Part shown: positions 18,201 through 64,000 of the stretch, piece after piece
Numbering within the stretch: position 1 is the first letter of the stretch
Layout of the letters: each line of letters begins with the position of its first letter
DNA from: Amphibalanus amphitrite
Taxonomy: Eukaryota > Arthropoda > Thecostraca > Balanomorpha > Balanidae
Length of the DNA stretch: 64,000 nucleotides
Reading direction: 5' to 3'
Assembly (NCBI RefSeq): GCF_019059575.1
Contig: NW_024882983.1
Coordinates: 1-64,000, forward strand
Made by a program: the position numbers and the translations under genes
Notes under the pieces: model-generated
Seen by the model: only the letters and a program-made list of their open reading frames with translations
What the model was told of the DNA's origin: nothing
The model's database searches: none

Positions 18201-19209
18201 TTAACCCGCGCACCGACGGGGGTCTGCGCCAACTTCGTACCGACGGGGGGGGCGGATGAAAGCCCCCCCCCCCGAGATCTCGAGAACGAAGCAAGATAGC
18301 GACAAGCGGTAAACGGCATCGGATACGCACGGTCAAGATCTACAATTTTTACTAAGGTCATTTTCAGGTCAGGTCAAAGATGACGTCACAGGGGTCGAAA
18401 AAGTCAAAATGGCGGCGCTGGATATGGAGAGAGTTTTTCTCGAATAACTTTCGAATTAGTCAAGATAGGAACAAACTAAGGGCAGCATCGTGATCCTCTC
18501 GTCAATCCGCATCGAATGATATATATGTTGACTTCGAAAGGTCAAGGTCAAAGGTTGACCTCAGGTCACGTGACCTCGAGGTCATCATATATATCATTCG
18601 ATGCGTCTTGATGAGCTGAACACAATGAGATCATCCACGCGTCTGTATCTTGTTCCTGTACGGAGTTATTGGCCAAAAACCTTTGGTGACCTTTGATGAC
18701 GTCACATGACCTCACAGCTGCCCAACAGCAAAACAGACCTCAAGGTAGTGAAGGTTGATCGTATATGAAGTCATGTATGGTATATGGGGCCATTCCGACC
18801 CGTTTTAGTGGTAAAAACAGGGAGTTGATTTTTCTCCCATTGACTTATAATGGGGAGGTCGCGAAATTGACCTGACCTTAGGTCACTGATATCAAAATTC
18901 CGAGATATACAAATTGTAGCTACTAATGATCTAATAACATCCTGCGACTTTCAAAGGCCTCCGACATCTACTGTAGCTCTGGCACGGTGACAAAGTTGCA
19001 AAAAAGTGACTTGAGGTTGGGTCATTCAAAGTGACCTGGTGACCTGACCTTGAAAGGTAGGAGGTTCAAACTTGCACACCATTTGTAAAATTGATGAGGG
19101 AATAGTCATACCAAATTTCGCGGCGCTACGCGCCGCGGTTTTCCCGCTATTCGCGAAAAACCTCAGGGGGGGGGCGGATATCCGCCCCCCCCGTCGGTGC
19201 GCGGGTTAA
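18201..19209. mobile_element. Nested TTAA MITE, family 5 copy 1
   Basis: The ends are TTAA-CCCGCGCACCGACGG and its inverse, with hairpin word GCGGATATCCGC between G and C tracts at the right end. It is nearly identical to the copy at 55587-56596 (1009 against 1010 bp), so this family moved recently. It contains TGACGTCA sites and many AGGTCA half-sites. It lies about 340 bp from the 3' end of the channel gene. Confidence 0.94.
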
Positions 19210-19494
19210 CACGACAGTTTTTCCGGGGCTATCAAACGCCGTTTGAATTTTGACGATCAGCCCAGTAGTTTCGGAGTTAGGATGGGGGCTATGAAGAGCC
19301 CCCCCCCCCCCCTAGTAGGGCGCGCTATACGGAGACCCCAGTGGGGCGCGGGTTAATTCTGACTCCGTCAGAAAAGGACAAACTCAACCCAACGATATGA
19401 TAAGCATCTACAATGAAATGCATTACAAAGGTAGATAAAAGAAATATAAAGGGAAGCAATTGAAGCTTATAAAAGGCAAAGGAAAGCAGACCAA

Positions 19495-19550: not shown

Positions 19551-21308
19551 TCACTGGGCTGATCGGCCTAGGAACAACTTACGAAAGGAATATTGAGTTA
19601 ATTTTCTACCGACTTTCCACACAAGCGCCTCGCCAGTAGCTACCAGGGTGAACAGGGAGAAGCCGGTCACTATGCCGATCGTGCCTCCTATGTTGGCCAC
19701 CAGAGTCGGCAGGGTGAAGGAGATGGCTTCATTGAGCTCGTCGGCATTCAGGTCAATCATCAACGTCAGCCTGGTGCGGCATAGTCTCTTTGGATCTTTT
19801 AGGCCAGGCTCAGACAGCCACGTTGAGAGGTGGTAAATTGTCCGACGACAAGGAGGTCGACAGTCGCAGCCCTGTATATCAGAAACAAGACTGTTCTCAA
19901 CGATTGTTCCCAGGTCACGTGAAAGTTGGCAGTAATTCCGTGGTTTATCCATATCAAATCCGTCAATTAGAACGGGAAGGGGTTTTGTTGGATTTGGTAA
20001 TCTAGCCCTGAACCGAAATGATCTATTACGTTGTGGGTCTAGCTTGGTAGGTCTGTACCATGACTGACCGTCGGAGTACGCGCAATTCTCGCCATATGAC
20101 AGGCACTGTCGCCAGTTCGTTCTGTATACGTTGTGTTCCAACTGCACGGGTTTTGTGCAGAGCGGCAGGTGGTCGAGCGGTCCGCTCATGTCGGGCAGGT
20201 ACACCCCGGCGCCGACCATGTGCGGCAGCCGGCAGGAGATGTTGGCCGCCAGACGATGCCACAGACACTCCTTCAGACACTGGGTGGCAGAGTAGCCGGG
20301 CTCCTCCCGACACTGCCGGCGCCGCACATTCACCATGTTGAGCATGCTGGTGGTCAGACGCAAAGAGAGGGCATCGTCCCTGGGCAAGTCCACCGAAGCC
20401 GTTCGCCCTAAATCAGCGCCCAGCTCGGTGGGGTCCAGGTCACCTACATTTGGCTCTTCGCTGTCGTGAAAATAGAGTTGGTATGCGAAATTTACTCCAC
20501 TGAATAGCTCCGTCCTCTTCAGGGTGATTCTCAAGGTAATGCCACTTTTGGCACTGTTTCTCAGGTATTCACTCGGCTGTAGAGTAAGACAGCGTTTTGG
20601 AATCAATAGGCCTTCTAGCGGGGACACCTTCAAATAGTATCGCGCGCGCCAACGCCCAAGCTGACTTGAACCTGGAAATGTGAGGTCAGGGTATAGTTCC
20701 GAGAATTTGATACGGGCGTAGTTAATGGAAAACTCCCGACGGGCGTAGCTCCTTAATTCGTTAAGAACCATGTTGATACGGTTGTATCTACCCTTTGTCT
20801 CCAGTAATTCCAATGTTGTCATGTTGTAGAACTGTTCCAGTGTGATTTCGTCTTTAAGGAAACTCTTTTCTGCATCGGAAAGCATGATCGTGTCTCTCAG
20901 TCCCGCAAAGGGACAGATTGTCAGACGCGGGAACGGGGCCTGGCGGCGGAGCACCGAAGAGCTGATGGGCTCCGAACGGTATTCCTGGTACTGTGAGAGC
21001 AGCTGCTGGAAGAGATAAGCCAGCAGCAGGAGATGCACCACCCAGCGGAGCAGGGGTATGATCACCTCAAAAAGCTTTTCTCTGTTTATCTTGGCGCCTG
21101 CGGCTGTCCCGCCCAGCCCGCTTTCGATCCCGCGATTGGAAGCACCACCAGACGATTTGTCTGCGTCATTCGGAATATGCCAGGCTGGCTGGACTTCATT
21201 GGGTCTTCTGGGTGATGATCTAGAAGACAATGCACTACTCCTTGGATGCACTACAACCACTTGGTGTCGGGTGAATTCCGACTCTTCTCGCAAGTCCTTT
21301 GTTGACAT
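19551..21308 (-). CDS. DEG/ENaC (pickpocket-like) sodium channel subunit
   Basis: This 585-residue protein has the layout of degenerin/epithelial sodium channels, trimeric plasma-membrane cation channels that are often amiloride-sensitive. A first membrane helix lies at about residues 81-104 and is followed by the family hallmark FPRLTIC (126-132). A large extracellular domain with many paired cysteines ends in CDCRPPC (481-487). The second helix at about 540-561 contains the GxS selectivity filter as GFS (549-551). The start is supported by an in-frame TAG 18 nt upstream. Length is normal for arthropod pickpocket proteins. The coding region has no intron, unusual for the family and compatible with a retrocopy or a lineage-specific intronless expansion. 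I do not see the N-terminal His-Gly gating motif usually found before the first helix. The ligand or stimulus cannot be inferred. Confidence 0.9.
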   Translation of the reverse strand: MSTKDLREESEFTRHQVVVVHPRSSALSSRSSPRRPNEVQPAWHIPNDADKSSGGASNRGIESGLGGTAAGAKINREKLFEVIIPLLRWVVHLLLLAYLFQQLLSQYQEYRSEPISSSVLRRQAPFPRLTICPFAGLRDTIMLSDAEKSFLKDEITLEQFYNMTTLELLETKGRYNRINMVLNELRSYARREFSINYARIKFSELYPDLTFPGSSQLGRWRARYYLKVSPLEGLLIPKRCLTLQPSEYLRNSAKSGITLRITLKRTELFSGVNFAYQLYFHDSEEPNVGDLDPTELGADLGRTASVDLPRDDALSLRLTTSMLNMVNVRRRQCREEPGYSATQCLKECLWHRLAANISCRLPHMVGAGVYLPDMSGPLDHLPLCTKPVQLEHNVYRTNWRQCLSYGENCAYSDGQSWYRPTKLDPQRNRSFRFRARLPNPTKPLPVLIDGFDMDKPRNYCQLSRDLGTIVENSLVSDIQGCDCRPPCRRTIYHLSTWLSEPGLKDPKRLCRTRLTLMIDLNADELNEAISFTLPTLVANIGGTIGIVTGFSLFTLVATGEALVWKVGRKLTQYSFRKLFLGRSAQ

Positions 21309-21774
21309 GATGTTCTTTGTCTAATCGGTGCTTGAATATGCAACTTGATGACTGGGAGCAGTATCCCTCCTGAAAAGGAAGATATACATTCCCTGTCATG
21401 GAAGTTATCTCGCGCCCTGTCGGGGGGGGGGGGGGGGCGGCGGCGGCATTTTTGCCAATATCATAAAAGGACGTTACGCCAGCAACGTCAATCTTCCAGT
21501 AGCTTATCTATACATCAATTTGAGATACTTCCTAAGTTGAGCGAAAGTCATTTTCGCTCCAAAAAGTGCAAAACTTTAAACGCATCTAGCGTTTTCAGTA
21601 AAAAAAAATGTTGTAAGCCGGTACCATAGGTATACTTTGACCTTTTTGACATTCCTGTGGCGTCAAAGGTCCAAGAAAAATGGTCAAGGATGTTTCTGTA
21701 GGTGCATAAATATGACATGTCTTCATAAAGATTCGAATATTTACTATTTAACATGTCTTTCCTTACGATTCACG
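21309..21774. promoter_or_regulatory. Upstream region of the channel gene with a 16-G run
   Basis: This is the 5' flank of the minus-strand channel gene. It holds an uninterrupted 16-G tract at 21422-21437 followed by CGG repeats, which could form a G-quadruplex. I find no convincing TATA box. Promoter function is inferred from position only. Confidence 0.35.
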
Positions 21775-45863: not shown

Positions 45864-47297
45864 ACTAGAGGTACAGGTTTACGCGATAACTGTATGTTTT
45901 GATTTATGTTATGTTACGGATGCATTAGTTTGGGTGATTAACTTGTATTCTGAGCTGTATTATTTGGGTAGATTTGGGTAGCTGTTTTTAATTGAACTGT
46001 AAGGGATGGTGATAGTTGCGGGGTGTTCAAGTGTTTTGTATGTTAGGCCCTTTTTGAACTCAACCCTACCCCTACCCTACCCCTACTTTACCCCTGCCCT
46101 ATCCTACCCTACCCCCTACCCTACCCTACCCTACCCTACCCTACCCTAACCTACTACCCTACCCTACCCTACACTACCCTAACCTACCATACCCTACCCT
46201 ACCCCTACCCTACCCTACCCTACCCTACTACCCTACCCTACTCTACCCTACCCTACCCTACCCTACCCTTCTACCCTAATCTACCCTACTACCCTACCCT
46301 ACCCTACCCTACCCTACCATACCCTACCTAACTCTACCCTACCTACCTCTACCCTACCCTACCATACCCTACCCTACTACCCTACCATACCCTACCCTAC
46401 CCTACCCTACCCTACCTTACCCTACCCTACCCTAGTCCCTATACCCTACCCTACCCTACTACCCTACCCTACCCTACCCTACCTTACCACTACCCTACCC
46501 TACCCTACCTACCCTACCCTACCCTACCCTAACCTACCCTACCTACCCTACCCTACCCTACCCTACTCCTACCCTACCCTACCCTACCCCACCCTACCTT
46601 ACCCTACCCTTACCCTACCCTACCCTACTCCTACCCTACCCTACCCTACCCTACCATACCCTACCCTACCCTACCTTTACACTACCCTACCCTACCCTAC
46701 CCTACCCTACCCTACCCTACCCTTACACTACCCTACCCTACCCTACCCTACCCTACCATACCCTACCCTTACACTACCCTACCCTACCCTACCCTACCCT
46801 ACCCTACCCTACCCTACCCTACCCTACTCCTACCCTACTCCTACACTAACCTACCCTACCCTACCATACCATACCCTATCCTACCCTTACACTACCCTAC
46901 CCTATCCTACCCTACCCTACCCTACCCTACCCTACCCTACCATACCCTACCCTTACACTATACCCTACCCTACCCCACCTTATCCTACCCTACCCTACCC
47001 TACCCTACCTAACTCTACCCTACCTAACTCTACCCTACCCTACCCTACCCTACCCTACCCTACAATCCCCTACAATCCCCTACCCTACCCTACCCTACCC
47101 TACAATCCCCTACCCTACCCTACACTACACTACCACCGACAGTCCAAGTTTCAGCTAAATCGGCCCAGAAACGGCTGAGATATTGCAAAAAGAAATTAAT
47201 TGTTTTTACTAGCGAATCCCCTTGGCGAGCGGTGCCTTGTGTCGGCTTTCGTTGGCTCTGATGCTTTTCACTCAGTTTTCTAAGCGAACAACTGAGC
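45864..47297 (+). repeat. Macrosatellite unit 4, truncated
   Basis: Head as in unit 3, then a TACCC array of more than 1 kb (46062-47133), then a shortened tail that stops at GAACAACTGAGCC near 47297, just before the giant palindrome. The last part of the unit seen in units 1-3 is missing. Confidence 0.87.
46062..47133 (+). repeat. TACCC pentamer array, unit 4
   Basis: About 1070 bp of CCCTA with interruptions such as CTACTA, CCATA and CTTACA. It is the longest of the four arrays. Confidence 0.94.
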
Positions 47298-47325
47298 CAG
47301 GCTGGCACGGTCCCCTACCCCTACA

Positions 47326-48340
47326 ACGTGCATATAGTTGCATCATATTCACATTCAGATTCGCGTGCACATTCGCGGACCCCTTCGATTTGGCTGAAAA
47401 TTGCACAGCAGATAGACCATGAGCTCCTAAGTGCAAAAATCATCTTTTTATTTACCGACATTAAAGGGACCCTCCCACCTTAACATTAGTTTTGAGTTGA
47501 GATAGCCAAGTTTGCGGCCAGGCTCAGAAACCACCATTTATCCTGGTCGCAACCCCCGCAGCTTTATGGTGTTCAAGAAATTTCTTCCCTTTACTTGCAG
47601 GGTGGGACCAGCTTGGTCCCTATCTCTTAACCATTACGGGAATCTGATGACGTCATCAGGCTTTCGAACGTCCGTTTAATGTTTGACTAAAACGTTTTGT
47701 AGCACGCGGTGGTATATGCTGCTTTGCGCGCAACAAATGCCGCACTTTCAAATAAAGTCGCTAGGAACAGCGGAGATCCCAAAAAGTAAACAAAAGTAAA
47801 AGTCTAATATCTTGAAAACCGGTGAATATTTTTCGATGGAATTTGGTAGATATTCGTTTTTGCTCTTTCTGAACCGAGCGACATCACTTTCATGCCAATT
47901 CATTAACTTTTTTGAAGGTGGGAGGGTCCCTTTAAGTATTTTCCAAGTTATTCACGTTTGTTTTACTAGTACAATATTCTCGTTAGTAAACTTCCCGGAA
48001 AAATCGGACCTCATCAAATTTCAAGAAAATTTACGAAATGATTAAGACTCAGTAGTTCTTTACAAAAAACTAATTTGCTTTAAACGCGGTCGCATAGTTT
48101 TCTCAGGAGAAGTCTCTAAAGTTCAAGGTCGTTCAAGGTCATGCAATTTTTCTCACTTTTTGGAGTCGTTTTACACGTGACAGCTTCGTATTTATGAAGG
48201 ACATTAGCTATACATACTGCAATAACAATATACTTAAGCACCAGAGGCATTGTTAGACCAAAGGGCGAAAAACAGTCGATAAACCTATTGAGCAAAGAAA
48301 AGAGGCAAATACAAGTGATATTCAGATTTCTCGTCCTAAA
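47326..48340 (+). repeat. Outer left arm of the palindrome
   Basis: This is the reverse complement of 61885-62437 once the MITE at 47461-47935 is removed. The inner 250 bp differ from the right arm by about one indel; the outer part has a few more differences. The tip is itself a diverged copy of the 154-bp unit (CGGACCCCTTCGATTTGGCT). Confidence 0.92.
47461..47935. mobile_element. 475-bp TTAA MITE, AGGGACCCTCCCACC ends, copy 2
   Basis: Same family as 25072-25546. The right palindrome arm keeps the empty site near 62295 (AAATACTTAATGTCGG, one TTAA), which proves the TTAA duplication and shows that the insertion came after the palindrome formed. Confidence 0.95.
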
Positions 48341-51300
48341 GTGAACTTGCCGGACCCCTCCGATTTCGTTCAAAGTAACAGGAATGATGCTCCTTGACCT
48401 CCTGAACACGAAAATAGTGCTCCTTTTGACCGACATCAAAGACTTTTCCAGATATACGCATGCGTGCACATTCAAATTGCATATGTTGCATATGGCACGT
48501 TGGGCGGACCCCTTCGATTTCGTTTAAAATCACAGGAATGATGATCCTTGACCTCCTGAACACGAAAGTAGTGCTCCTTTTGACCGACATCAAAGACTTT
48601 TCCAGATATACGCATGCGTGCACATTCAAATTGCATATGTTGCATATGGCACGTTGGGCGGACCCCTTCGATTTCGCTCAAAATCACAGGAATGATGCTC
48701 CTTGACCTCCTGAACACGAAAACAGTGGTACTTTTGACCGATATCAAAGACTTTTCCAGATATACGCATGCGTGCACATTCAAATTGCATATGTTGCATA
48801 TGGCACGTTGGGCGGACCCCTTCGATTTCGTTCAAAATCACAGGAATGATGCTCCTTGACCTGAACACGAAAACAGTGCTACTTTTGACCGACATCAAAG
48901 ACTTTTCCAGATATACGCATCCGTGCACATTCAAATTGCATATGTTGCATATGGCACGTTGGGCGGACCCCTTCGATTTCGTTTAAAATCACAGGAATGA
49001 TGATCCTTGACCTCCTGAACACGAAAGTAGTGCTCCTTTTGACCGACATCAAAGACTTTTCCAGATATACGCATGCGTGCACATTCAAATTGCATATGTT
49101 GCATATGGCACGTTGGGCGGACCCCTTCGATTTCGCTCAAAATCACAGGAATGATGCTCCTTGACCTCCTGAACACGAAAACAGTGGTACTTTTGACCGA
49201 CATCAAAGACTTTTCCAGATATACGCATGCGTGCACATTCAAATTGCATATGTTGCATATGGCACGTTGGGCGGACCCCTTCGATTTCGTTCAAAATCAC
49301 AGGAATGATGCTCCTTGACCTCCTGAACACGAAAACAGTGCTACTTTTGACCGACATCAAAGACTTTTCCAGATATACGCATCCGTGCACATTCAAATTG
49401 CATATGTTGCATATGGCACGTTGGGCGGACCCCTTCGATTTCGTTCAAAATCACAGGAATGATGCTCCTTGACCTCCTGAACACGAAAACAGTGGTACTT
49501 TTGACCGACATCAAAGACTTTTCCAGATATACGCATGCGTGCACATTCAAATTGCATATGTTGCATATGGCACGTTGGGCGGACCCCTTCGATTTGGCTC
49601 AAAATCACAGGAATGATGCTCCTTGACCTCCTGAACACGAAAACAGTGGTACTTTTGACCGACATCAAAGACTTTTCCAGATATACGCATGCGTGCACAT
49701 TCAAATTGCATATGTTGCATATGGCACGTTGGGCGGACCCCTTCGATTTCGTTCAAAATCACAGGAATGATGCTCCTTGACCTCCTGAACACGAAAATAG
49801 TGCTCCTTTTGACCGACATCAAAGACTTTTCCAGATATACGCATGCGTGCACATTCAAATTGCATATGTTGCATATGGCACGTTGGGCGGACCCCTTCGA
49901 TTTCGCTCAAAATCACAGGAATGATGCTCCTTGACCTACTGAACACGAAAACAGTGCTACTTTTGACCGACATCAAAGACTTTTCCAGATATACGCATGC
50001 GTGCACATTCAAATTGCATATGTTGCATATGGCACGTTGGGCGGACCCCTTCGATTTCGTTCAAAATCACAGGAGTGATGCTCCTTAACCTCCTGAACAC
50101 GAAAACAGTGCTACTTTTGACCGACATCAAAGACTTTTCCAGATATACGCATGCGTGCACATTCAAATTGCATATGTTGCATATGGCACGTTGGGCGACC
50201 CCTTCGATTTCGTTCAAAATCACAGGAATGATGCTCCTTGACCTCCTGAACACGAAAGTAGTGCTCCTTTTGACCGACATCAAAGACTTTTCCAGATATA
50301 CGCATGCGTGCACATTCAAATTGCATATGTTGCATATGGCACGTTGGGCGGACCCCTTCGATTTCGTTCAAAATCACAGGAATGATGCTCCTTGACCTCT
50401 TGAACACGAAAACAGTGCTACTTTTGACCGACATCAAAGACTTTTCCAGATATACGCATGCGTGCACTTTCAAATTGCATATGTCGCATATGGCACGTTG
50501 GGCGGACCCCTTCGATTTCGTTCAAAATCACAGGAATGATGCTCCTTGACCTCCTGAACACGAAAGTAGTGCTCCTTTTGACCGACATCAAAGACTTTTC
50601 CAGATATACGCATGCGTGCACATTCAAATTGCATATGTTGCATATGGCACGTTGGGCGGACCCCTTCGATTTCGCTCAAAATCACAGGAATGATGCTCCT
50701 TGACCTCCTGAACACGAAAACAGTCCTACTTTTGACCGACATCAAAGACTTTTCCAGATATACGCATGCGTGCACATTCAAATTGCATATGTTGCATATG
50801 GCACGTTGGGCGGACCTCTTCGATTTCGCTAAAAATCACAGGAATGATGCTCCTTGACCTCCTGAACACGAAAATAGTGCTCCTTTTGACCGACATCAAA
50901 GACTTTTCCAGATATACGCATCCGTGCACATTCAAATTGCATATGTTGCATATGGCACGTTGGGCGGACCCCTTCGATTTCGTTCAAAATCACAGGAATG
51001 ATGCTCCTTGACCTCCTGAACACGAAAGTAGTGCTCCTTTTGACCGACATCAAAGACTTTTCCAGATATACGCATGCGTGCACATTCAAATTGCATATGT
51101 TGCATATGGCACGTTGGGCGGACCCCTTCGATTTCGCTCAAAATCACAGGAATGATGCTCCTTGACCTCCTGAACACGAAAACAGTGGTACTTTTGACCG
51201 ACATCAAAGACTTTTCCTGATATACGCATGCGTGCACATTCAAATTGCATATGTTACATATGGGACGTTGGGCGGACCCCTTCGATTTCGTTCAAAATCA

Positions 51301-52163
51301 CAGGAATGATGCTCCTTGACCTCCTGAACACGAAAACAGTGCTACTTTTGACCGACATCAAAGACTTTTCCAGATATACGCATTCGTGCACATTCAACTT
51401 GCATATGTTGCATATGGCACGTTGGGCGGACCCCTTCGATTTCGTTCAAAATCACAGGAATGATGCTCCTTGACCTCCTGAACACGAAAATAGTGCTCCT
51501 TCTGACCGACATCAAAGACTTTTCCAGATATACGCATGCGTGCACATTCAAATTGCATATGTTGCATATGGCACGTTGGGCGGACCCCTTCGATTTCGCT
51601 CAAAATCACAGGAATGATGCTCCTTGACCTCCTGAACACGAAAACAGTGGTACTTTTGACCGACATCAAAGACTTTTCCAGATATACGCATGCGTGCACA
51701 TTCAAATTGCATATGTTGCATATGGCACGTTGGGCGGACCCCTTCGATTTCGTTCAAAATCACAGGAATGATGCTCCTTGACCTCCTGAACACGAAAACA
51801 GTGCTACTTTTGACCGACATCAAAGACCTTTCCAGATATACGCATGCGTGCACATTCAAATTGCATATTTTGCATATGGCACGTTGGGCGGACCCCTTCG
51901 ATTTTGTTCAAAATCACAGGAATGATGCTCCTTGACCTCCTGAACACGAAAATAGTGCTCCTTTTGACTGACATCAAAGACTTTTCCAGATATACGCATG
52001 CGTGCACATTCAAATTGCATATGTTGCATATGGCACGTTGGGCGGCCCCCTTCGATTTCGCTCAAAATCACAGGAATGATGCTCCTTGACCTCCTGAACA
52101 CGAAAATAGTGCTCCTTTTGACCGACATCAAAGACTTTTCCAGATATACGCATGCGTGCACAT
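48340..52163 (+). repeat. 154-bp tandem array, left (about 25 units)
   Basis: Units of 154 bp share CATATGTTGCATATGGCACG and CTTTTCCAGATATACGCATG. Variants are marked by the words after ACGAAA (ATAGTGCTCC, GTAGTGCTCC, ACAGTGGTAC, ACAGTGCTAC). A three-unit block is duplicated: the private variant GTTTAAAATC...GATGATCC recurs with an offset of 459 bp (48522 and 48981). Since 154 is one more than a multiple of three and stops are rare, overlapping frames appear on both strands in every unit; they are not genes. Confidence 0.96.
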
Positions 52164-52169
52164 AGTCGT

Positions 52170-52740
52170 TGTGAGTCTAGAAGCTTCTAAAGAGGCCAAT
52201 GTTTGGCTATACACCCCGTAAGTGGTCTTTAGGCATACGAGTCAATGCAGAGGTCAACTTAACGGTCTCTCCTGCCTAAACTAAGAAAGATACAGAAACC
52301 CGGTTACCACCATTCGATAGTCCTTGAATGTATCTACAATACATAGGAAATTCAAGGTTTTGACGTTTTTGGTCTGGCCGCCAGATGACGCCAAAGTTGA
52401 CATATATTTGCGCCACCTGGTGGGCAGTTGTAGAAGCTCGACGAAAATGCGGTTCTAATATGTTGTAGCCACATCCATTCTGCATCGACTGACACTAGAA
52501 ACTTGAAGATCGGTGTAGTCGTATTGAATGTAGAAGCTTCTAAAGAGATCTATGTTTGTCTATGCACCCCTTAAGTGGTCTTTAGGCATGCGAGTCAATT
52601 CAGAGGTCAACTTAACGGTCTCTCCTGCCTAAACTAAGAAAGATACAGAAATCCGGTTACCACCATTCGATAGTCCTTGAATGTATCTATAACATATAGG
52701 AAATTCAAGGTCTTGACGTTTTTGACGTTACCAAGCGAAT
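52170..52740 (-). repeat. 353-bp array, left (about 1.6 units, inverted)
   Basis: Minus-strand copies of the unit found in plus orientation at 53470-58365. Each starts at a TAGAAGCTTCTA word. The pair of CTCF-like motifs lies at 52378-52423. Confidence 0.92.
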
Positions 52741-52744
52741 AACA

Positions 52745-53462
52745 AAGCTAAGGTCTCCAACGATTCCCCGATTCACGGACTACCTTCGCCAAGGTTCGTG
52801 ACCTACAAGGTCATGACCTTCCAGGTCAATATCAAGGTCAAACGACGGGAACCGCTCTGCGCGCCGAAGTTAGCGACCGATTTCCAAAGTTAAGGTGTCA
52901 AACGATTCCCCGATTCACGGACTACATTCACCGAGGTTTATGACCCTCAAAGTCATGACCTTCCAGGTCAGCACCAAGGTCAAATCACAGAAAGCGCCCT
53001 ACACGCCAAACTTAACGACCGATTACCAAAGTTAAGGTCTCAAACGGTCTCAAACGATTCCCCGATTCACAGACTACCTCCACCGAGGTTCATGACCTCC
53101 AAGGTCGTGACCTTCCAGGTCAACATCAAGGTCAAACGACGGAAACCGCTCTGCACGACAAAATTAGCGACCGATTACTAAAGTTAAGGTCTCAAACGAT
53201 TCCACAGTTCACGAACTACCTTCTCCAACGTTCATGACCTCATCCAGGTCAACACCAAGGTAAAATGACAGAAAGCGCCCTACACGCCAAAGTTACCGGC
53301 CGATTACCAAAGTTAAGGTCTCAAACGAATCCCCGATTCACAGAATACCTTCACCAAGATTCGTGACCTCCAGAGTCATGACCCTCCAGGTCAACATCAG
53401 GCCAAACGACGGAAAACGCTCTGCAAGCCAAAGGTAGCGAACGATTCCCAAAGGTAAGGTCT
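52745..53462 (+). repeat. 142-bp array in the palindrome centre (5 units)
   Basis: Units begin near 52761, 52903, 53055, 53198 and 53326 with AACGATTCCCCGATTCAC. Most contain an AGGTCA/TGACCT inverted pair (for example AGGTCATGACCT at 52808-52819) followed by further AGGTCA half-sites. Spacings of 142, 152, 143 and 128 reflect small indels. Confidence 0.9.
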
Positions 53463-53469
53463 CCTGACT

Positions 53470-56400
53470 AGTCTCGTATGCCTAAAGACCACTTAAGGGG
53501 TGCATAGCCAAACATTGGTCTCTTTAGAAGCTTCTAGACTCAAAACGACTGAACCGATCTTCAAGTTTCTAGTGTCAGTCGATGCAGAATTGATGTGGCT
53601 ACAAACATGTTAGATCCGCATTTTCGTCGAGCTTCTACAACTGCCCACTAGTAGGCGCAAATATATGTCATTTTTGGCGCCATCTGGTGGCCAGACCAAA
53701 AACGTCAAGACCTTGAATTTCCCATATGTTGTAGATAGATTCAAGGACTATCGAATGGTGGTAACCGGGTTTCTGTATCTTTCTTAGTTTAGGCAGGAAA
53801 GACCGTTAAGTTGACCTCTGTATTGACTCGTATGCCTAAAAACCACTTAAGGGATGTATAGACAAACATTGGTCTCTTAAGAAGCTTCTAGACTCAAACG
53901 ACTGAACCGATATTCAAGTTTCTAGTGTCAGTCGATGCAGAATTGATGTGGCTACAACATGTTAGAACTGCATTTTCTTTGAATTTCTACAACTGCCCAC
54001 CAGGTGGCGCAAATATATGTCAAATTTGGCACCATCTGGCGGCCAGACCAAAAACGTTCAAACCTTGAATTTCCTATATGTTGTAGATACATTCAAGGAC
54101 TATCAAATGGCGGTAACCGGGTTTCTGTATCTTTCTTAGTTTAGGCAGGAGAGATCGTTAAGTTGACCTCTGTATTGACTCGTATGCCTAAAGACCACTT
54201 AAGGGGTGTATAGCCAAACATTGGTCTCTTTAGAAGCTTTTAGACTCAAAACGACTGAATTGATCTTCAAGTTTCTAGTGTCATTCGATGCAGAATTGAT
54301 GTGGCTACAACATGTTAGAACCGCATTTTCGTCGAACTTCTACAACTGCCCACCAGGTGGCGCGAATATATGTCAAATTTGGCGCCATCTGGCGGCCAGA
54401 CCAAAAACGTCAAGGCCTTGAATTTCCTATGTGTTGTAGATACATTCAAGTACTATCGAATAGTGGTAATCGAGTTTCTGTATCTTTCTCATTTTAGGCA
54501 GGAGAGACCGTTAAGTTGACCTCTGCATTGACTCGTATGCCTAAAGACCACTTACGGGGTGTATAGCCAAACATTGGTCTCTTTAGAAGCTTCTAGACTC
54601 AAAACGACTGAATTGATCTTCAAGTTTCTAGTGTCAGTCGATGCAGAATTGACGTGGCTACAACATGTTAGATCCGCATTTTCGTCAAACTTCTACAACT
54701 GCCCACCAGGTGGCGCAAATATATGTCAAATTTAGCGCCATCTGGCGGCCAGACCAAAAACGTCAAGACCTTGAATTTCCTATATGTTATAGATACATTC
54801 AAGGACTATCGAATGGTGGTAACCAGATTTCTGTATCTTTCTTAGTTTAGGCAGGAGAGACCGTTAAGTTGACCTCTGAATTGACTGGCATGCCTAAAGA
54901 CCACCTAAGGGGTGCATAGACAAACATAGCTCTCTTTAGAAGCTTCTACATTCAATACGACTACACCGATCTTCAAGTTTCTAGTGTCAGTCGATGCAGA
55001 ATGGATGTGGCTACAACATATTAGAACCGCATTTTCGTCGAGCTTCTACAACTGCCCACCAGGTGGCGCAAATATATGTCAATTTTGGCGTCATCTGGCG
55101 GCCAGACCAAAAACGTCAAGACCTTGAATTTCCTATGTGTTGTAGATACATTCAAGGACTATCGAATGGTGGTAATCGAGTTTCTGAATCTTTCTTAGTT
55201 TAGGCAGGAGAGACCGTTAAGTTGACCTCTGCATTGACTCGTATGCCTAAAGACCACTTACGGGGTGTATAGCCAAACATTGGCCTCTTTAGAAGCTTCT
55301 AGACTCAAAACGACTGAATTGATCTTCAAGTTTCTAGTGTCAGTCGATGCAGAATTGACGTGGCTACAACATGTTAGAACCGCATTTTCGTCAAGCTTCT
55401 AGAAATGCCCACCAGGTGGCGGAAATATATGTCAAGCTTGGTGCCATCTGGCCGCCAGACCAAAAACGTCAAGACCTTGAATTTCCTCTAAGTTGTAGAT
55501 ACATTCAAGGACTATCGAATGGCGGTAACAGGGTTTCTGTATCTTTCTTAGTTTAGGCAGGAGAGACCGTTAAGTTGACCTCTGTATTAACCCGCGCACC
55601 GACGGGGGTCTGCGCCAACTTCGCACCGACGGGGGGGGGGGCGGATGACCGCCCCCCCCCCTGAGATCTCGAGAACGAAGCAAGATAGCGACAAGCGGTA
55701 AACGGCATCGGATACGCACGGCCAAGATCTACAATTTTTACTCAGGTCATTTTCAGGTCAGGTCAAAGATGACGTCACAGGGGTCGAAAAAGTCAAAATG
55801 GCGGCGCTAGATATGGAGAGAGTTTTTCTCGAATAACTTTCGAATTAGTCAAGATAGGAACAAACTAAGGGCATCATCGTGATCCTCTCGTCAATCCGCA
55901 TCGAATGATATATATGTTGACCTCGAAAGGTCAAGGTCAAAGGTTGACCTCAGGTCACGTGACCTCGAGGTCATCATGCATATCATTCAATGCGTCTTGA
56001 CGAGCTGAACACAATGAGACCATCCACGCGTCTGTATCTTGTTCCTGTACGGAGTTATTGGCCAAAAACCTTTGGTGACCTTTGATGACGTCACATGACC
56101 TCACAGCCGCCCAACAGCAAAACAGACCTCAAGGTAGCGAAGGTTGATCGTATATGAAGTCATGTATGGTATATGGGGCCATTCCGACCCGTTTTAGTGG
56201 TAAAAACAGGGAGTTGATTTTTCCCCCATTGACTTATAATGGGGAGGTCGCGAAATTGACCTGACCTTAGGTCACCGATATCAAAATTCCGAGATACACA
56301 AAATGTAGCTACTAATGACCTAATAATATCCTGCGACTTTCAAAGGCCTCCGACATCTACTGTAGCTCTGGCACGGTGACAAAGTTGCAAAAAAGTGACT

Positions 56401-58365
56401 TGAGGTTGGGTCATTCAAAGTGACCTGGTGACCTGACCTTAAAAGGTAGGAGGTTCAAACTTGCACACCATGTGTAAAATTGATGAGGTTATAGTCATAC
56501 CAAATTTCGCGGCGCTACGCGCCGCGGTTTTCCCGCTATTCGCGAAAAACCTCAGGGGGGGCGGATATCCGCCCCCCCCGTCGGTGCGCGGGTTAACTCG
56601 TATGCCTAAAGACCACTAAAGGGGTGTATAGACAAACATTGGTCTCTTAAGAAGCTTCTAGACTCAAAACGACTGAACTGATCTTCAAGTTTCTAGTGTC
56701 AGTCGATGCAGAATTGATGTGGCTACAACATGTTAGAACCGCATTTTTGTCGAACTTCTACAACTGCCCACCAGGTGGCGCAAATATATGTCAACTTTGC
56801 CTGAACAAACATAGGTTTCTTTAGAAGCTTCTACATTCAATACGACTACACCGATCTTCAAGTTTCTAGTGTCAGTCGATGCAGAATGGATGTGGCTACA
56901 ACATATTAGAACCGCATTTTCGTCGAGCTTCTACAACCGCCCACCAGGTGGCGCAAATATTTGTCAACTTTGGCGTCATCTGGTGGCCAGACCAAAAACG
57001 TCAAGACCTTGAATTTCCTATGTATTGTAGATACATTCAAGGACTATCGAATGGTGGTAACCGGGTTTCTGTATCTTTCTTAGTTTAGGCAGGAGAGACC
57101 GTTAAGTTGACCTCTGCATTGACTCGTATGCCTAAAGACCACTTACGGGGTGTATAGCCAAACATTAGCCTCTTTAGAAGCTTCTAGACTCGAAACGACT
57201 GAATTGATCTTCAAGTTTCTAGTGTCAGTCGATGCAGAATTGATGTGGCTACAACATGTTAGAACCGCATTTTCGTCGAACTTCTACAACTGCCCACCAG
57301 GTGGCGCAAATGAATGTCAAATCTGGTGGCCAGACCAAAAACGTCAAGACCTTGAATTTCCTATGTGTTTTAGATACATTCAAGGACTATCGAATGCTGG
57401 TAACCGGGTTTCTGTATCTTTCTTAGTTTAGGCAGTAGAGACCGTTAAATTGACCTCTGCATTGACTCGTATGCCTAAAGACCACTTACGGGGTGTATAG
57501 CCAAACAATGGTCTCTTTAGAAGCTTCTAGACTCAAAACGACTGAATTGATCTTCAAGTTTCTAGTGTCAGTCGATGTAGAATTGACGTGGCTACAACAT
57601 GTTAGAACCGCATTTTCGTCGAATTTCTACAACTGCCCACCAGGTGGCGCAAATATATGTCAAGCTTGGTGCCATCTGGCGGCCAGACTAAGAACGTTCA
57701 GACCTTGAATTTCCTCTAAGTTGTAGATACATTCAAGGACTATCGAATGGCGGTAACAGGGTTTCTGTATCTTTCTTAGTTTAGGCAGGAGAGACCGTTA
57801 AGTTGACCTCTGTATTGACTCGTATGCCTAAAGACCACTAAAGGGGTGTATAGACAAACATTGGTCTCTTAAGAAGCTTCTAGACTCAAAACGACTGAAC
57901 CGATCTTCAAGTTTCTAGTGTCAGTCGATGCAGAATTAATGTGGCTACAACATGTTAGAACGGCATTTTCGTCGAACTTCTACAACTGCCCACCAGGTGG
58001 CGCAAATAAATGTCAACTTTGGCGCCATCTGGCGGCCAGACCAAAAACGTCAAGACCTTGAATTTCCTATGTGTTGTAGATACATTCAAGGTCTATCGAA
58101 TGGTGGTAGCCGGGTTTCTGTATCTTTCTTAGTTTAGGCAGGAGAGACCGTTAAGTTGACCTCTGCATTGACTCGTATGCCTAAAGACCACTTACGGGGT
58201 GTATAGCCAAACATTGGCCTCTTTAGAAGCTTCTAGACTCAAAACGACTGAATTGATCATCAAGTTTCTAGTGTCAGTCGATGCAAAATTGATGTGGCTA
58301 CAACATGTTAGAAGCGCATTTTCATCGAGCTTCTAGAACTGCCCACCAGAAGCTTCTAGACTCAA
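53470..58365 (+). repeat. 353-bp array, right (about 12 units)
   Basis: CGTATGCCTAAAGACCAC starts units at 53474, 53829, 54181, 54534, about 54887 and 55240; after the inserted MITE (55587-56596) the array resumes and runs through starts near 57127, 57472, 57824 and 58177. One unit near 56800 carries a deletion. Each full unit contains CCACCAGGTGGCGC followed, 18 bp on, by GCGCCATCTGGCGG or a near variant. The right junction to the 154-bp array (AAAACGACTATGTGCACG) mirrors the left junction. Confidence 0.94.
55587..56596. mobile_element. TTAA MITE family 5 copy 2, nested in the 353-bp array
   Basis: TTAA-CCCGCGCACCGACGG and its inverse, 1010 bp, nearly identical to 18201-19209. Other 353-bp units read TATTGACTCGTATG at this point; here the element sits between TGTA and CTCGTATG with TTAA at each side, so the occupied unit carried TTAA instead of TTGA. 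Confidence 0.95.
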
Positions 58366-61300
58366 AACGACTATGTGCACGCATGCGTACCTATATCTGG
58401 AAAAGTCTTTGATGTCGGTCAAAAGGAGCACTATTTTCGTGTTCAGGAAATCAAGGAGCATCATTCCTGTGATTTTGAGCGAAATCGAAAGGGTCCGCCC
58501 AACGTGCCATATGCAACATATGCAATTTGAATGTGCACGCATGCGTATATCTGGAAGTCTTTGATGTCGGTCAAAAGTAACACTGTTTTCGTGTTCAGGA
58601 GGTCAAGGAGCATCATTCCTGTGATTTTGAGCGAAATCGAAGGGGTCCGCCCAACGTGCCATATGCAACATATGTAATTCGAATGTGCACGCATGCGTAT
58701 ATCTGGAAAAGTCTTTGATGTCGGTCAAAAGGAGCACTATTTTCGTGTTCAGGAGGTCAAGGAGCATCATTCCTGTGATTTTGAACGAAATCGAAGGGGT
58801 CCGCCCAACGTGCCATATGCAACATATGCGATTTGAATGTGCACGGATGCGTATATCTGGAAAAGTCTTTGATGTCGGTCAAAAGTAGCACTGTTTTCGT
58901 GTTCAGGAGGTCAAGGAGCATCATTCCTGTGATTTTGAACGAAATCGAAGGGGTCCGCCCAACGTGCCATATGCAACATATGCAATTTGAATGTGCACGC
59001 ATGCGTATATCTGGAAAAGTCTTTGATGTCGGTCAAAAGTAGCACTGTTTTCGTGTTCAGGAGGTCAAGGAGCATCATTCCTGTGATTTTGAGCGAAATC
59101 GAAGGGGTCCGCCCAACGTGCCATATGCAACATATGCAATTTGAATGTGCACGCATGCGGATATCTGGAAAAGTCTTTGATGTCGGTCAAAAGGAGCACT
59201 ACTTTCGTGTTCAGGAGGTCAAGGAGCATCAATCCTGTGATTTTGAACGAAATCGAAGGGGTCCGCCCAACGTGCCATATGCAACATATGCAATTTGAAT
59301 GTGCACGCATGCGTATATCTGGAAAATCTTTGATGTCGGTCAAAAGGAGCACTGTTTTCGTGTTCAGGAGGTTAAGGAGCATCATTCCTGTGATTTTGAA
59401 CGAAATCGAAGGGGTCCGCCCAAGGTGCCATATGCAACATATGCAATTTGAATGTGCACGGATGCGTATATCTGGAAAAGTCTTTGATGTCGGTCAAAAG
59501 GAGCACTATTTTCGTGTTCAGGAGGTCAAGGAGCATCATTCCTGTGATTTTGAACGAAATCGAAGGGGTCCGCCCAAGGTGCCATATGCAACATATGCAA
59601 TTTGAATGTGCACGCATGCGTATATCTGGAAAAGTCTTTGATGTCGGTCAAAAGTAGCACTATTTTCGTGTTCAGGAGGTCAAGGAGCATCATTCCTGTG
59701 ATTTTGAACGAAATCGAAGGGGTCCGCCCAACGTGCCATATGCAACATATGCAATTTGAATGTGCACGCATGCGTATATCTGGAAAAGTCTTTGATGTCG
59801 GTCAAAAGTAGCACTGTTTTCGTGTTCAGGAGGTCAAGGAGCATCATTCCTGTGATTTTGAACGAAATCGAAGGGGTCCGCCCAACGTGCCATATGCAAC
59901 ATATGCAATTTGAATGTGCACGCATGCGTATATCTGGAAAAGTCTTTGATGTCGGTCAAAAGGAGCACTACTTTCGTGTTCAGGAGGTCAAGGAGCATCA
60001 TTCCTGTGATTTTGAACGAAATCGAAGGGGTCCGCCCAACGTGCCATATGCAACATATGCAATTTGAATGTGCACGCATGCGTATATCTGGAAAAGTCTT
60101 TGATGTCGGTCAAAAGTAGCACTGTTTTCGTGTTCAGGAGGTTAAGGAGCATCATTCCTGTGATTTTGAGCGAAATCGAAGGGGTCTGCCCAACGTGCCA
60201 TATGCAACATATGCAATTTGAATGTGCACGGATGCGTATATCTGGAAAAGTCTTTGATGTCGGTCAAAAGGAGCACTATTTTCGTGTTCAGGAGGTCAAG
60301 GTGCATCATTCCTGTGATTTTGAGCGAAATCGAAGGGGTCTGCCCAACGTGCCATATGCAACATATGCAATTTGAATGTGCACGCATGCGTATATCTGGA
60401 AAAGTCTTTGATGTCGGTCAAAAGGAGCACTATTTTCGTGTTCAGGAGGTCAAGGAGCATCATTCCTGTGATTTTGAGCGAAATCGAAGGGGTCCGCCCA
60501 ACGTGCCATATACAACATATGCAATTTGAATGTACACGCATGCGTATATCTGGAAAAGTCTTTGATGTCGGTCAAAAGTAGCACTGTTTTCGTGTTCAGG
60601 AGGTCAAGGAGCATCATTCCTGTGATTTTGAGCGAAATCGAAGGGGTCCGCCCAACGTGCCATATGCAACATATGCAATTTGAATGTGCACGCATGCGTA
60701 TATCTGGAAAAGTCTTTGATGTCGGTCAAAAGGAGCACTATTTTTGTGTTCAGGAGGTCAAGGAGCATCATTCCTGTGATTTTGAACGAAATCGAAGGGG
60801 TCCGCCCAACGTGCCATATGCAACATATGCAATTTGAATGTGCACGCATGCGTATATCTGGAAAAGTCTTTGATGTCGGTCAAAAGTAGCACTGTTTTCG
60901 TGTTCAGGAGGTCAAGGAGCATCATTCCTGTGATTTTGAGCGAAATCGAAGGGGTCCGCCCAACGTGCCATATGCAACATATGCAATTTGAATGTGCACG
61001 CATGCGTATATCTGGAAAAGTCTTTGATGTCGGTCAAAAGGAGCACTACTTTCGTGTTCAGGAGGTCAAGGAGCATCATTCCTGTGATTTTGAGCGAAAT
61101 CGAAGGGGTCCGCCCAACGTGCCATATGCAACATATGCAATTTGAATGTGCACGCATGCGTATATCTGGAAAAGTCTTTGATGTCGGTCAGAGGGAGCAC
61201 TATTTTCGTGTTCAGGAGGTCAAGGAGCATCATTCCTGTGATTTTGAACGAAATCGAAGGGGTCCGCCCAACGTGCCATATGCAACATATGCAATTTGAA

Positions 61301-61885
61301 TGTGCACGCATGCGTATATCTGGAAAAGTCTTTGATGTCGGTCAAAAGGAGCACTATTTTCGTGTTCAGGAGGTCAAGGAGCATCATTCCTGTGATTTTG
61401 AACGAAATCGAAGGGGTCCGCCCAAGGTGCCATATGCAACATATGCAATTTGAATGTGCACGCATGCGTGTATCTGGAAAAGTCTTTGATGTCGGTCAAA
61501 AGTACCACTGTTTTCGTGTTCAGGAGGTCAAGGAGCATCATTCCTGTGATTTTGAGCGAAATCGAAGGGGTCCGCCCAACGTGCCATATGCAACATATGC
61601 AATTTGAATGTGCACGCATGCGTATATCTGGAAAAGTCTTTGATGTCGGTCAAAAGGAGCACTACTTTCGTGTTCAGGAGGTCAAGGAGCATCATTCCTG
61701 TGATTTTAAACGAAATCGAAGGGGTCCGCCCAACGTGCCATATGCAACATATGCAATTTGAATGTGCACGCATGCGTATATCTGGAAAAGTCTTTGATGT
61801 CGGTCAAAAGGAGCACTATTTTCGTGTTCAGGAGGTCAAGGAGCATCATTCCTGTGACTTTGAACGAAATCGGAGGGGTCCGGCA
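58366..61885 (-). repeat. 154-bp tandem array, right (about 23 units, inverted)
   Basis: Same unit as 48340-52163 in the opposite orientation. Counting from the outer edge inward, the first three unit variants (ATAG, GTAG, GGTAC types) match the left arm in order, and the private GTTTAAAATC variant is in the second unit of both arms. Deeper units differ in order, so the arms started as copies and have since turned over internally. Confidence 0.96.
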
Positions 61886-62437
61886 AGTTCACTTTAGGAC
61901 GAGAAATCTGAATATCACTTGTATTTGCCTCTTTTCTTTGCTCAATAGGTTTATCGACTGTTTTTCGCCCTTTGGTCTAACAATGCCTCTGGTGCTTAAG
62001 ATATTGTTATTGCAGTATGTATAGCTAATGTCCTTCATAAATACGAAGCTGTCACGTGTAAAACGACTCCAAAAAGTGAGAAAAATTGCATGACCTTGAA
62101 CGACCTTGAACTTTAGAGACTTCTCCTGAGAAAACTATGCGACCACGTTTGATGCAAGTTAGTTTTTTGTAAAGAACTACTGAGTCTTAATTATTTCTGA
62201 AATTTTCTTGAAATTTGATGAGGTCCGATTTTTCCGGGAAGTTTACTAACCAGAATATTGTACTAGTAAAACAAACTTGAATAACTTGGAAAATACTTAA
62301 TGTCGGTAAATCAAAAGATGATTTTTGCACTTAGGTGCTCATGGTCTATCTGCTGTGCGATTTTCAGCCAAATCGAAGGGGTCCGCGAATGTGCACGCGA
62401 ATCTGAATGTGAATATGATGCAACTATATGCACGTCC
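61885..62437 (-). repeat. Outer right arm of the palindrome
   Basis: Inverted partner of 47326-48340. It lacks the MITE and so preserves that element's empty target site near 62295. Confidence 0.93.
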
Positions 62438-64000
62438 GCCATCAAAACAGCATATTTACGTCTGGACAACGAGTTGCGGGGAAAAGTGCTGATTGTGTTG
62501 CAGTTTTAGGAGCCGGTGATTAGGCTGGATTTTTGGGTTACTTTTTCGTTCCGATTCATGTATTTCATAGTGTTTGGCTTTTGAATATTTTAGTTCTTTC
62601 AGATAAATATTACTTGCCTTACAACTTTTGTAAAAACGTTTCATTTTTTTATAAGCCGACGTTCAGAGTCCTAAAAATACATCAGCACTACAATCATTGT
62701 AAACAAACAAATGGAGCACCACTTGGCTCTGTTCCAAGGCCATTTTTTAGTTTATCTGGTGGTTTTCTTGCTCTTGTACGTCGTTTTGTTGGATGTTTTG
62801 AATCCCTTAAGATTGACTTATATCATATTTAAGAAGCATGTTGACTGAAAACAATCTGAAGTATCCAGGAGGCTGACAGAGGTCCTGACTACTGAGTGAT
62901 ATCAATATCAAGTTGAACAAGTTATGAAATTTTGGTTGATAAACGCAAGTTGATCGGGCTCATATATCAGCAAGAAAAAGTAAAATTAAAAGAGCTTATT
63001 GTCCAAAAACAAGCTAAAATTTTGCAGACCTTGGAGCAATACTGAAGAGCATGCTGAGCAGGATCATGCCAGAAAATGTTGACTGACGAGCACATATTGA
63101 TGTATTGGTATGAATATTGAATGATAACTTACAACAGCAAGATAAATTAGTGCTAACTATTAAGTAAAATCTAGAATGAATGGACTTGGGCAGTTTTACT
63201 ATGCTTAGATGCTATGCAGATTGTAATGTCCATCAGATACTCAGTGTCTGGCAAATGAAACATGCGATCATTCCATTGCTACTGGAGGAGACAGCTTGGA
63301 TCACTAAATCAACTTTATGTTGATTTTGATGTTAATCATCATCACTGTATTCCTTGAAAAAAGGATTGTAGTAAAATTGTAAATGTGACAATCCATGCAA
63401 CGATGTGATCATATTATGTGTTCATAGTCATTCGTGATAGTCATTATTGGTCCAATATACAATGGCAAAGATCTCAGTCTCAGCGTTTCTTCCTGTGGAT
63501 GGCCAGCAGTGACTCAGAGCTTAGAAGTATTAGTTTTCTTCACAGGGCTGGGATAAAAAGTACTGAGGGTAATCTTCCACCAAGGAACTCTACTTTGACA
63601 TGGTATGAGATGTAGGCACAAGTAGGTAGGTGCTCAGTTCCTATAGTCAGTAGTTGTGTATGTTTAGTCGGGCTAGCTTAGATCAGATTGTTAGTTTTTT
63701 AATTTGCCAAATGTCCATAAAAATGTGACCTGAGCAATGAGCATACCTGAACCTGACTAACCTGACAGCTGACCTAACCTCAATCATCACACATATTTGC
63801 AGCCTACCCAAGACCTGCATGGCAGTAGCACCCAGTTATAGGTAGGTACTCACCCTAACTCAATCTTACCTGCTAACCTTCAACTTGCCAAAAGTTAGCT
63901 CACATTGCCAAGCTGTGTCCAGGGAAACAGTCAACTGAGAACTGGCTCATTGGGTGGCTGGTGTGAGTCTGTGCATTTAAAGTGTTTCTTCTCTGAAGCT
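62438..64000. other. Unassigned stretch
   Basis: AT-rich DNA with no gene, no long frame and no repeat shared with the rest of the window. A 99-codon frame at 62533-62832 has no motif I know. Confidence 0.55.

Follow-up and report, generated by a model that had tools for sequence, protein, structure and literature searches.

Does a palindrome of some 15 kb that is built from several classes of tandem repeats reflect a local rearrangement of satellite DNA, or is it a single transposable element? The question is raised by the window analysed here, a stretch of 64,000 bp of Amphibalanus amphitrite DNA (positions 1 to 64,000 of contig NW_024882983.1, contig C1486 below) from an assembly of 807.5 Mb in 2,644 contigs (GCF_019059575.1). 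A first-pass annotation of the window had described the palindrome, from the letters alone, as one fold-back-type unit and not as several independent satellites. Our analysis agrees: at least 21 convergent pairs of its ends, array junctions shared between contigs and 9-bp target site duplications (TSDs) indicate that the stretch is very probably a member of family A, a group of non-autonomous fold-back DNA transposons that has been mobile recently.

Architecture and dispersal of the palindrome

The palindrome occupies positions 47326 to 62435 (15,110 bp, with ends ACGTGCATATAG...CTATATGCACGT); the left end is that of the first-pass annotation, and the right end, placed there at 62437, is corrected. 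BLAST of the window against itself aligns 47932-51855 with 62300-58373 in inverted orientation at 97.56%, and Tandem Repeats Finder detects two 154-bp arrays, 353-bp arrays and a 142-bp array. From the left, a unique arm (47326..48350, forward strand, about 553 bp plus a 471-bp insert) is followed by a 154-bp array (48351..52163, forward, 24.8 units), a 353-bp array (52164..52735, forward, 1.6 units), a 142-bp array that forms the unpaired centre (52736..53472, forward, 5.2 units), an inverted 353-bp array broken by an insert (53473..58372, reverse strand, about 11 units), an inverted 154-bp array (58373..61882, reverse, 22.8 units) and a right arm of about 553 bp without the 471-bp insert (61883..62435, reverse). 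This nested order had been read correctly, as had the lengths of the 154-bp arrays (about 25 and about 23 units), of the left 353-bp array (1.6) and of the 142-bp array (5). The right 353-bp array is inverted as described, with about 11 units instead of about 12 and with an insert of about 1,010 bp that had been missed; the arms likewise stand, with the 471-bp insert to be added to the left one. Long inverted repeats that include tandem repeats are the structural mark of a fold-back element, and the window element has them.

Besides the two inserts, the sides differ chiefly in array length (154-bp, 24.8 vs 22.8 units; 353-bp, 1.6 vs about 11). The 471-bp insert (47461..47935) is flanked by TTAA, has inverted ends GGGACCCTCCCACCTT and is found neither in the right arm nor in the otherwise near-identical left arm of the copy on C785. 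The TTAA-ended passenger of about 1,010 bp (55587..56597) lies within the right 353-bp array. Its ends are TTAACCCGCGCACCGACGGGGG, a 97% copy occupies 18201-19210 of the window, and a partial third copy (92%) was seen at the edge of a locus on C49.

The description of the palindrome as protein-free also held. Of 31 open reading frames (ORFs) of at least 90 amino acids that overlap it, 29 fall within the 154-bp arrays, recurring from unit to unit; the remaining two are at 48116-48475, mainly in the arm, and at 57150-57431, in the 353-bp array. A Pfam scan of five of the 31 gave no match at E<=0.1, and no Rfam match in 47000-62800 reached the gathering score.

Relatives of the element are dispersed through the assembly. 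With 40 of 155 candidates scored, a search with the arm found 40 matches at 95-100%, counting the window's own. When up to three mismatches are allowed, the 33-bp terminus matches 141 times genome-wide, and a reversed-pattern control gave none. The pairing analysis rests on 100 listed matches of the 141, which comprise 49 subfamily-A ends (47 exact, two with a single mismatch) and 51 ends of a sister subfamily, B. Among the matches listed, subfamily-A ends form at least 21 convergent pairs 4.3 to 26.2 kb apart, the window's included (on C3, C19, C20, C46, C72, C92, C162, C233, C277, C302, C403, C447, C519, C737, C785, C974, C1009, C1119, C1130, C1417 and C1486); seven are unpaired (C26, C76, C161, C407, C736 twice, C1410). 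The ends lie 26.2 kb apart in C1130 (including a nested element of about 8 kb) and 23.4 kb apart in C1417. The flank of C407 recurs at C1410 in the opposite orientation; the assembly thus seems to contain haplotype duplicates, and distinct insertions may be fewer.

The array junctions of the window element were searched in sampled loci that were covered only partly, so that absence elsewhere means little. The 154/353 junction, with up to four mismatches, was found in 13 contigs (C403, C3, C1119, C407, C1410, C447, C1486, C785, C974, C1417, C162, C302, C72), on both sides in C1486 and C447, the 353/142 junction in 14 and the 142/353 junction in 13.

Perfect 9-bp TSDs lie flush with the ends at 13 of the 15 loci for which both ends were read (14 of subfamily A, one of B), and none of 210 cross-locus comparisons matched. 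The TSD of C1130 was scored after allowing for a peculiarity of its right end (C1130:191059), where the terminal 14 bp are tandemly duplicated just inside the TSD. The first-pass annotation had named several independent loci with the same order and a consistent TSD as the support for its reading, and these are what the pairs, the junctions and the TSDs provide.

Uninterrupted target sites, a further mark of fold-back elements, were found for C233, C1009, C277, C447 and C3. The target of C233 is continuous at C1374 over 220 of 220 bp (100%), where the TSD sequence is present once. Among 40 scored of 3,108 candidates, no other place than C1374 matches the 1.5-kb left flank of C233 in full. On the simplest reading of these sequences the 13.3-kb C233 copy is probably heterozygous in the sequenced individual; alternatively, C1374 may be a very recent segmental duplicate and not the empty allele. 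For C1009, C277 and C447 the empty targets are paralogous, and for C3 39 matches run across the junction at 95-97%.

The family has recently been mobile, and the element moves as a whole. The window and C785 copies, whose flanks are different, agree at 99.94 and 99.97% over two overlapping stretches of the centre (3.6 and 3.7 kb); their right ends, compared over 2.05 kb, are 99.27% alike. Between these copies the left arms are 0.18% and the right arms 0.0% apart, while left and right arms within each differ by 2.0-2.2%. Offsets between them are constant to 3 bp across the 353-bp array, and C785 therefore seems to carry the 1-kb passenger too. In a second close set (C233, C519, C92) same-side arms are 0-0.18% apart in the pairs printed and the three TSDs are different. 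Across 615 pairs, arms taken from different A copies are on average 1.82% apart.

Some observations count against a mobile element. Dispersed copies with fixed ends and a TSD characterise the family, but neither the window copy nor C72, both read at both ends, has a TSD, and no empty site for C785, C519, C92 or C403 was found among 40 scored of 2,171 candidates. That the window copy lacks a TSD may be due to later insertions or deletions beside it, or to exchange between copies. On its left, 27 bp separate the element from the end of an (ACCCT)n repeat family; on its right a repeat begins about 12 bp after it and occurs at 39 other places at 96-100% (40 scored of 1,067). This high-copy interspersed repeat corresponds to 62450-63900 of the window, and a 21-bp stretch that seems to belong to it was read by eye near the left end of C72.

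A rival reading is that satellite arrays were duplicated locally, in inverted orientation, at a single place; in its favour, the window copy is without a TSD and lies between two interspersed repeats. The first-pass annotation had named such a single locus as one of the findings that would overturn its reading; it was looked for and is excluded by the dispersed copies. With 21 pairs of the same ends, different flanks where these were read, TSDs at 13 of 15 loci and an uninterrupted target, we consider a local duplication extremely improbable. An assembly or hairpin-read artefact is scarcely more credible. Long palindromes are assembly-prone, and one of 13 kb at C235:389049-402093 (loci L067 and L068; 99.5%, almost no spacer, running across several unrelated repeats) could be a recent inverted duplication or just such an artefact. 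In family A, however, the arms are about 2% apart, left and right identity is kept between the window and C785, the sides are unequal, and TSDs and the same junctions recur, the latter in 13-14 contigs. The exact array copy numbers are not secured.

Array units, arms and mirrored junctions

The array unit of the transposon resembles its own end. BLAST aligns the terminus with the 154-bp unit at 70% over 94 bp, and in a multiple alignment the match extends over about 150 bp, weakly in the outer 50 bp. Subfamily B reads CGCCGTCAAG where A reads CGACATYAA, in terminus and unit alike. The A-type box CGGACCCCTYCGATTT, which at the left end lies at 47376..47391 (forward), is confined within the window to this element, whose left half has 23 copies, all forward, and whose right half has 21, all reversed, the last at 62385; in subfamily B the box of the terminus (CTCGGATTT) is not that of the unit (CTCCGATTT). 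That terminus and unit are alike and change together between subfamilies suggests arrays of putative docking modules, and the 154-bp array may thus multiply the docking site of a transposase. By analogy, the tandem repeats in the terminal inverted repeats (TIRs) of Galileo are reported, in a work cited by PMC4079207, to hold extra transposase-binding sites. It speaks against a docking role that the resemblance may reflect common descent without any function in binding.

The two sides of the element mirror each other closely. The 154/353 junction falls at the identical base left and right (52163/52164 and 58373/58372), as the first-pass annotation had claimed for the junctions between array classes. 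Its further claim, that the outermost three 154-bp variants are collinear, is favoured without being strong: pairing the units of the two sides from the outside in, in the same register, gives on average 3.5 differences per unit (n=22), other tested registers give 3.38-5.7, and the only value below that of the same register (3.38, at a shift of -16) comes from just 8 units.

Arm-against-arm comparison covered 15 copies with both arms, C331 being the sole B copy in the set. Both arms were nearer to a foreign arm in eight (C1486, C785, C233, C519, C92, C403, C3, C1417) and nearer to their partner in four (C1009, C447, C20, C331); two copies were mixed (C72, C277) and C1130 gave a tie. Because a foreign arm is often nearer than the partner, the arms appear mostly to have been transposed unchanged. 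The comparison lends no support to a steady homogenisation that acts evenly on both arms of each copy, and we would invoke copying from arm to arm only for the origin of the mirrored 154/353 junction.

Two short copies, C20 of subfamily A (4.3 kb) and C331 of subfamily B (3.3 kb), are made up of an arm, a 154/155-bp array, a spacer of about 155 or about 110 bp, the inverted array and an arm, without a 142-bp array. This layout looks like the minimal form, to which the 353- and 142-bp arrays would be additions. Array length varies widely between copies: six arms, each spanned by one locus, hold 1.8, 8.8, 2.8, 1.8, 1.8 and 8.8 units of the 154-bp repeat, against 24.8 and 22.8 in the window.

These features can be combined into one scheme. 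A transposase encoded elsewhere, most likely of MULE type (Mutator-like element), would pair the two ACGT... ends, and the element would be inserted by a 9-bp staggered cut. The 154-bp unit would be a tandemly amplified relative of the terminal module and would offer dozens of extra putative transposase sites. The 353-bp array, and the 142-bp array from a Merlin-like element, may have been recruited later between the arms, and copying of the 154-353 order from one arm to the other would have produced the identical mirrored junctions. More tentatively, and with rather less chance of being right than wrong, one may picture a still-active lineage of fold-back elements, about 1 to 26 kb long, in which the transposon's own end serves as array unit: each would be a giant docking array for its transposase that expands and shrinks, copies new sequence between its arms, swallows arrays of unrelated transposons and spreads ready-made satellites through the genome, perhaps under an enzyme of an undescribed superfamily.

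Related families and the candidate transposase

Two further families share parts of this design. One, F135, was read through only in the copy nested in the 353-bp array of C1130, where head-to-head 135-bp arrays (29.8 and 29.4 units) meet without a spacer between ends ACGTCTGTCAAGACAG...CACATTCGGACCCC, with the flank CCCGTAAGTG duplicated over 8-10 bp according to where the end is placed. It has the end motif in common with family A. The F135-type end pattern gave 183 matches, its reversed control none; among 100 listed of the 183, 95 are F135-type, with at least 41 convergent pairs 0.97-24 kb apart and 13 single ends.

The other, F142, is a separate Merlin-like family. At its loci on C899, C137, C939 and C235, GG ends of about 100 bp in inverted orientation, like GGTATTAGTAAGCCTGG, enclose inverted 142-bp arrays; 8-bp TSDs were read by eye at C137 (GTCAGAAC) and C939 (CTTCATAG), and the two sides of C235, lying within a larger perfect palindrome, are not independent. 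The 142-bp core of the window is 79-87% like near-full-length matches in these loci and is carried by 13 A-type loci over its full 737 bp at 97-100%. To judge from this likeness, the centre of the window element is an F142-type array. An ORF piece between the inverted 142-bp arrays of C899 matches the NCBIfam IS1595 transposase (E=4.3e-4, 20.2 bits, cut-off 75 bits), and the two ORF pieces there gave no Pfam match at E<=10. A 21-bp minisatellite of 30 units (L060:8196-8800) continues in frame from the IS1595-like piece, beginning right after its presumed second catalytic region.

Elements of the Mutator superfamily make TSDs of 8-11 bp, most often 9 bp, and the 9 bp found at 13 loci fit this superfamily. 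Nine bp is a common TSD size there (PMC3169594), and a 9-bp TSD together with a fold-back design is usual in accounts of it (PMC3169594, PMC4079207). Both features favour a MULE, and we hold with moderate confidence that an enzyme of this type acts in trans on family A. The TSD does not fit the 7-8 bp of Galileo and the P superfamily. The transposase search used two models, PF10551 (MULE), with 111 matches in the genome (150 of 204 candidates scored), and PF12762 (IS1595/Merlin), with 21. By eye, no match of either model was seen between the listed paired ends (100 of 141 and 100 of 183), and no MULE end resembling ACGT was seen; both may tell against a MULE partner.

Mobilisation by a Merlin-type, IS1595-like transposase is an unlikely alternative with some substance, as the 142-bp core is common to F142, whose fold-back copies have GG ends and TSDs of 8 bp, an ORF piece between the arrays of C899 is IS1595-like, albeit far below the cut-off, and Merlin TSDs are described as 8 or 9 bp (PMC8101967). 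Family A, however, begins with ACGT at the TSD boundary, unlike the GG-starting TIRs given for Merlin in the same source, and each of the 13 loci with a TSD has one of 9 bp; moreover, the short copies C20 and C331 do without the 142-bp array and the C899 ORF pieces lack a Pfam match. A transposase of another or an undescribed superfamily seems about equally improbable. We know of no recognised transposon end that matches the motif ACGT...CACATTC..GGACCCC, and no coding partner with these ends was found with the two models, which, being only two, make this absence weak evidence against the Mutator-like features of TSD and design.

Several candidates for the coding partner were set aside. A MULE with a FLYWCH domain on C1243 has inverted ends of about 15-bp repeats and no family A ends, and the MULE locus on C49 has no long TIR within 4.5 kb. 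The spacer at the centre of C20, followed as a lead to an autonomous copy, was found in full in C20 and C19 alone. Larger copies were considered as gene carriers: part of the extra length of C1130 is the nested 135-bp-unit palindrome of about 8 kb, and 700 bp sampled at the centre of C133 proved to be another subfamily-B arm. Nothing was recognised in 600 bp sampled from C142.

Precedents and neighbouring features

Galileo, Tetris, FB and Tm1 are precedents for the design of family A; its size and its three array classes are unusual. Drosophila FB elements are fold-backs with internally repetitive TIRs and a 9-bp TSD, and in this resemble family A; they are smaller, their repeats are short and they have a MULE-type partner, NOF. 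The first-pass annotation knew only small relatives, which needs softening: the longest comparable element found in the literature covered is copy 112 of Galileo (P superfamily) in D. willistoni, of 9,021 bp, transposase-less, with TIRs of 4.2 and 4.7 kb that contain tandem repeats of about 140 bp and fragments of other transposons (PMC4168063). Galileo has a TSD of 7-8 bp and one such copy, family A a TSD of 9 bp and tens of copies of 4.3-26 kb with three array classes. Tetris of D. virilis, a non-autonomous fold-back with a TSD of 8-10 bp, has TIR tandem repeats that share 37 bp with the outer TIR and is described as a seed of satellite DNA (PMC4079207). Three of its copies are structurally complete; in family A terminus and unit align over about 150 bp and two further array classes lie inside. 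Tm1 of Meloidogyne (Mutator/Foldback) combines composite TIRs, variable tandem repeats, mostly 9-bp TSDs and non-autonomous forms (PMC3169594), and differs in its repeats of about 14 bp, its short elements and a MULE-encoding member, whereas none is linked to family A. Some Merlin elements also contain tandem repeats, with TSDs of 8 or 9 bp and GG ends (PMC8101967) in place of the ACGT ends of family A. A three-class array hierarchy was not found in the fold-back literature covered by our search, which left subscription journals mostly aside.

Family A offers a recent, apparently polymorphic and genome-wide case in which satellite arrays travel as transposons of 10-26 kb, and between its sister subfamilies the array unit changes along with the terminus. 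It makes testable why fold-backs carry tandem repeats, as extra transposase sites or by mere slippage, and how mirrored arms acquire the same new sequence.

Elsewhere in the window, a second, small fold-back (1417-2708) has inverted ends of 15-17-bp tandem repeats (CAAAACAGCTAGTGA) and shares a 40-bp match with the inverted ends, likewise made of repeats, of the FLYWCH MULE on C1243. An open frame of 589 amino acids on the reverse strand (19551-21320) resembles DEG/ENaC (ASC) channels, and the window also contains reverse transcriptases of the long interspersed nuclear element (LINE) type.

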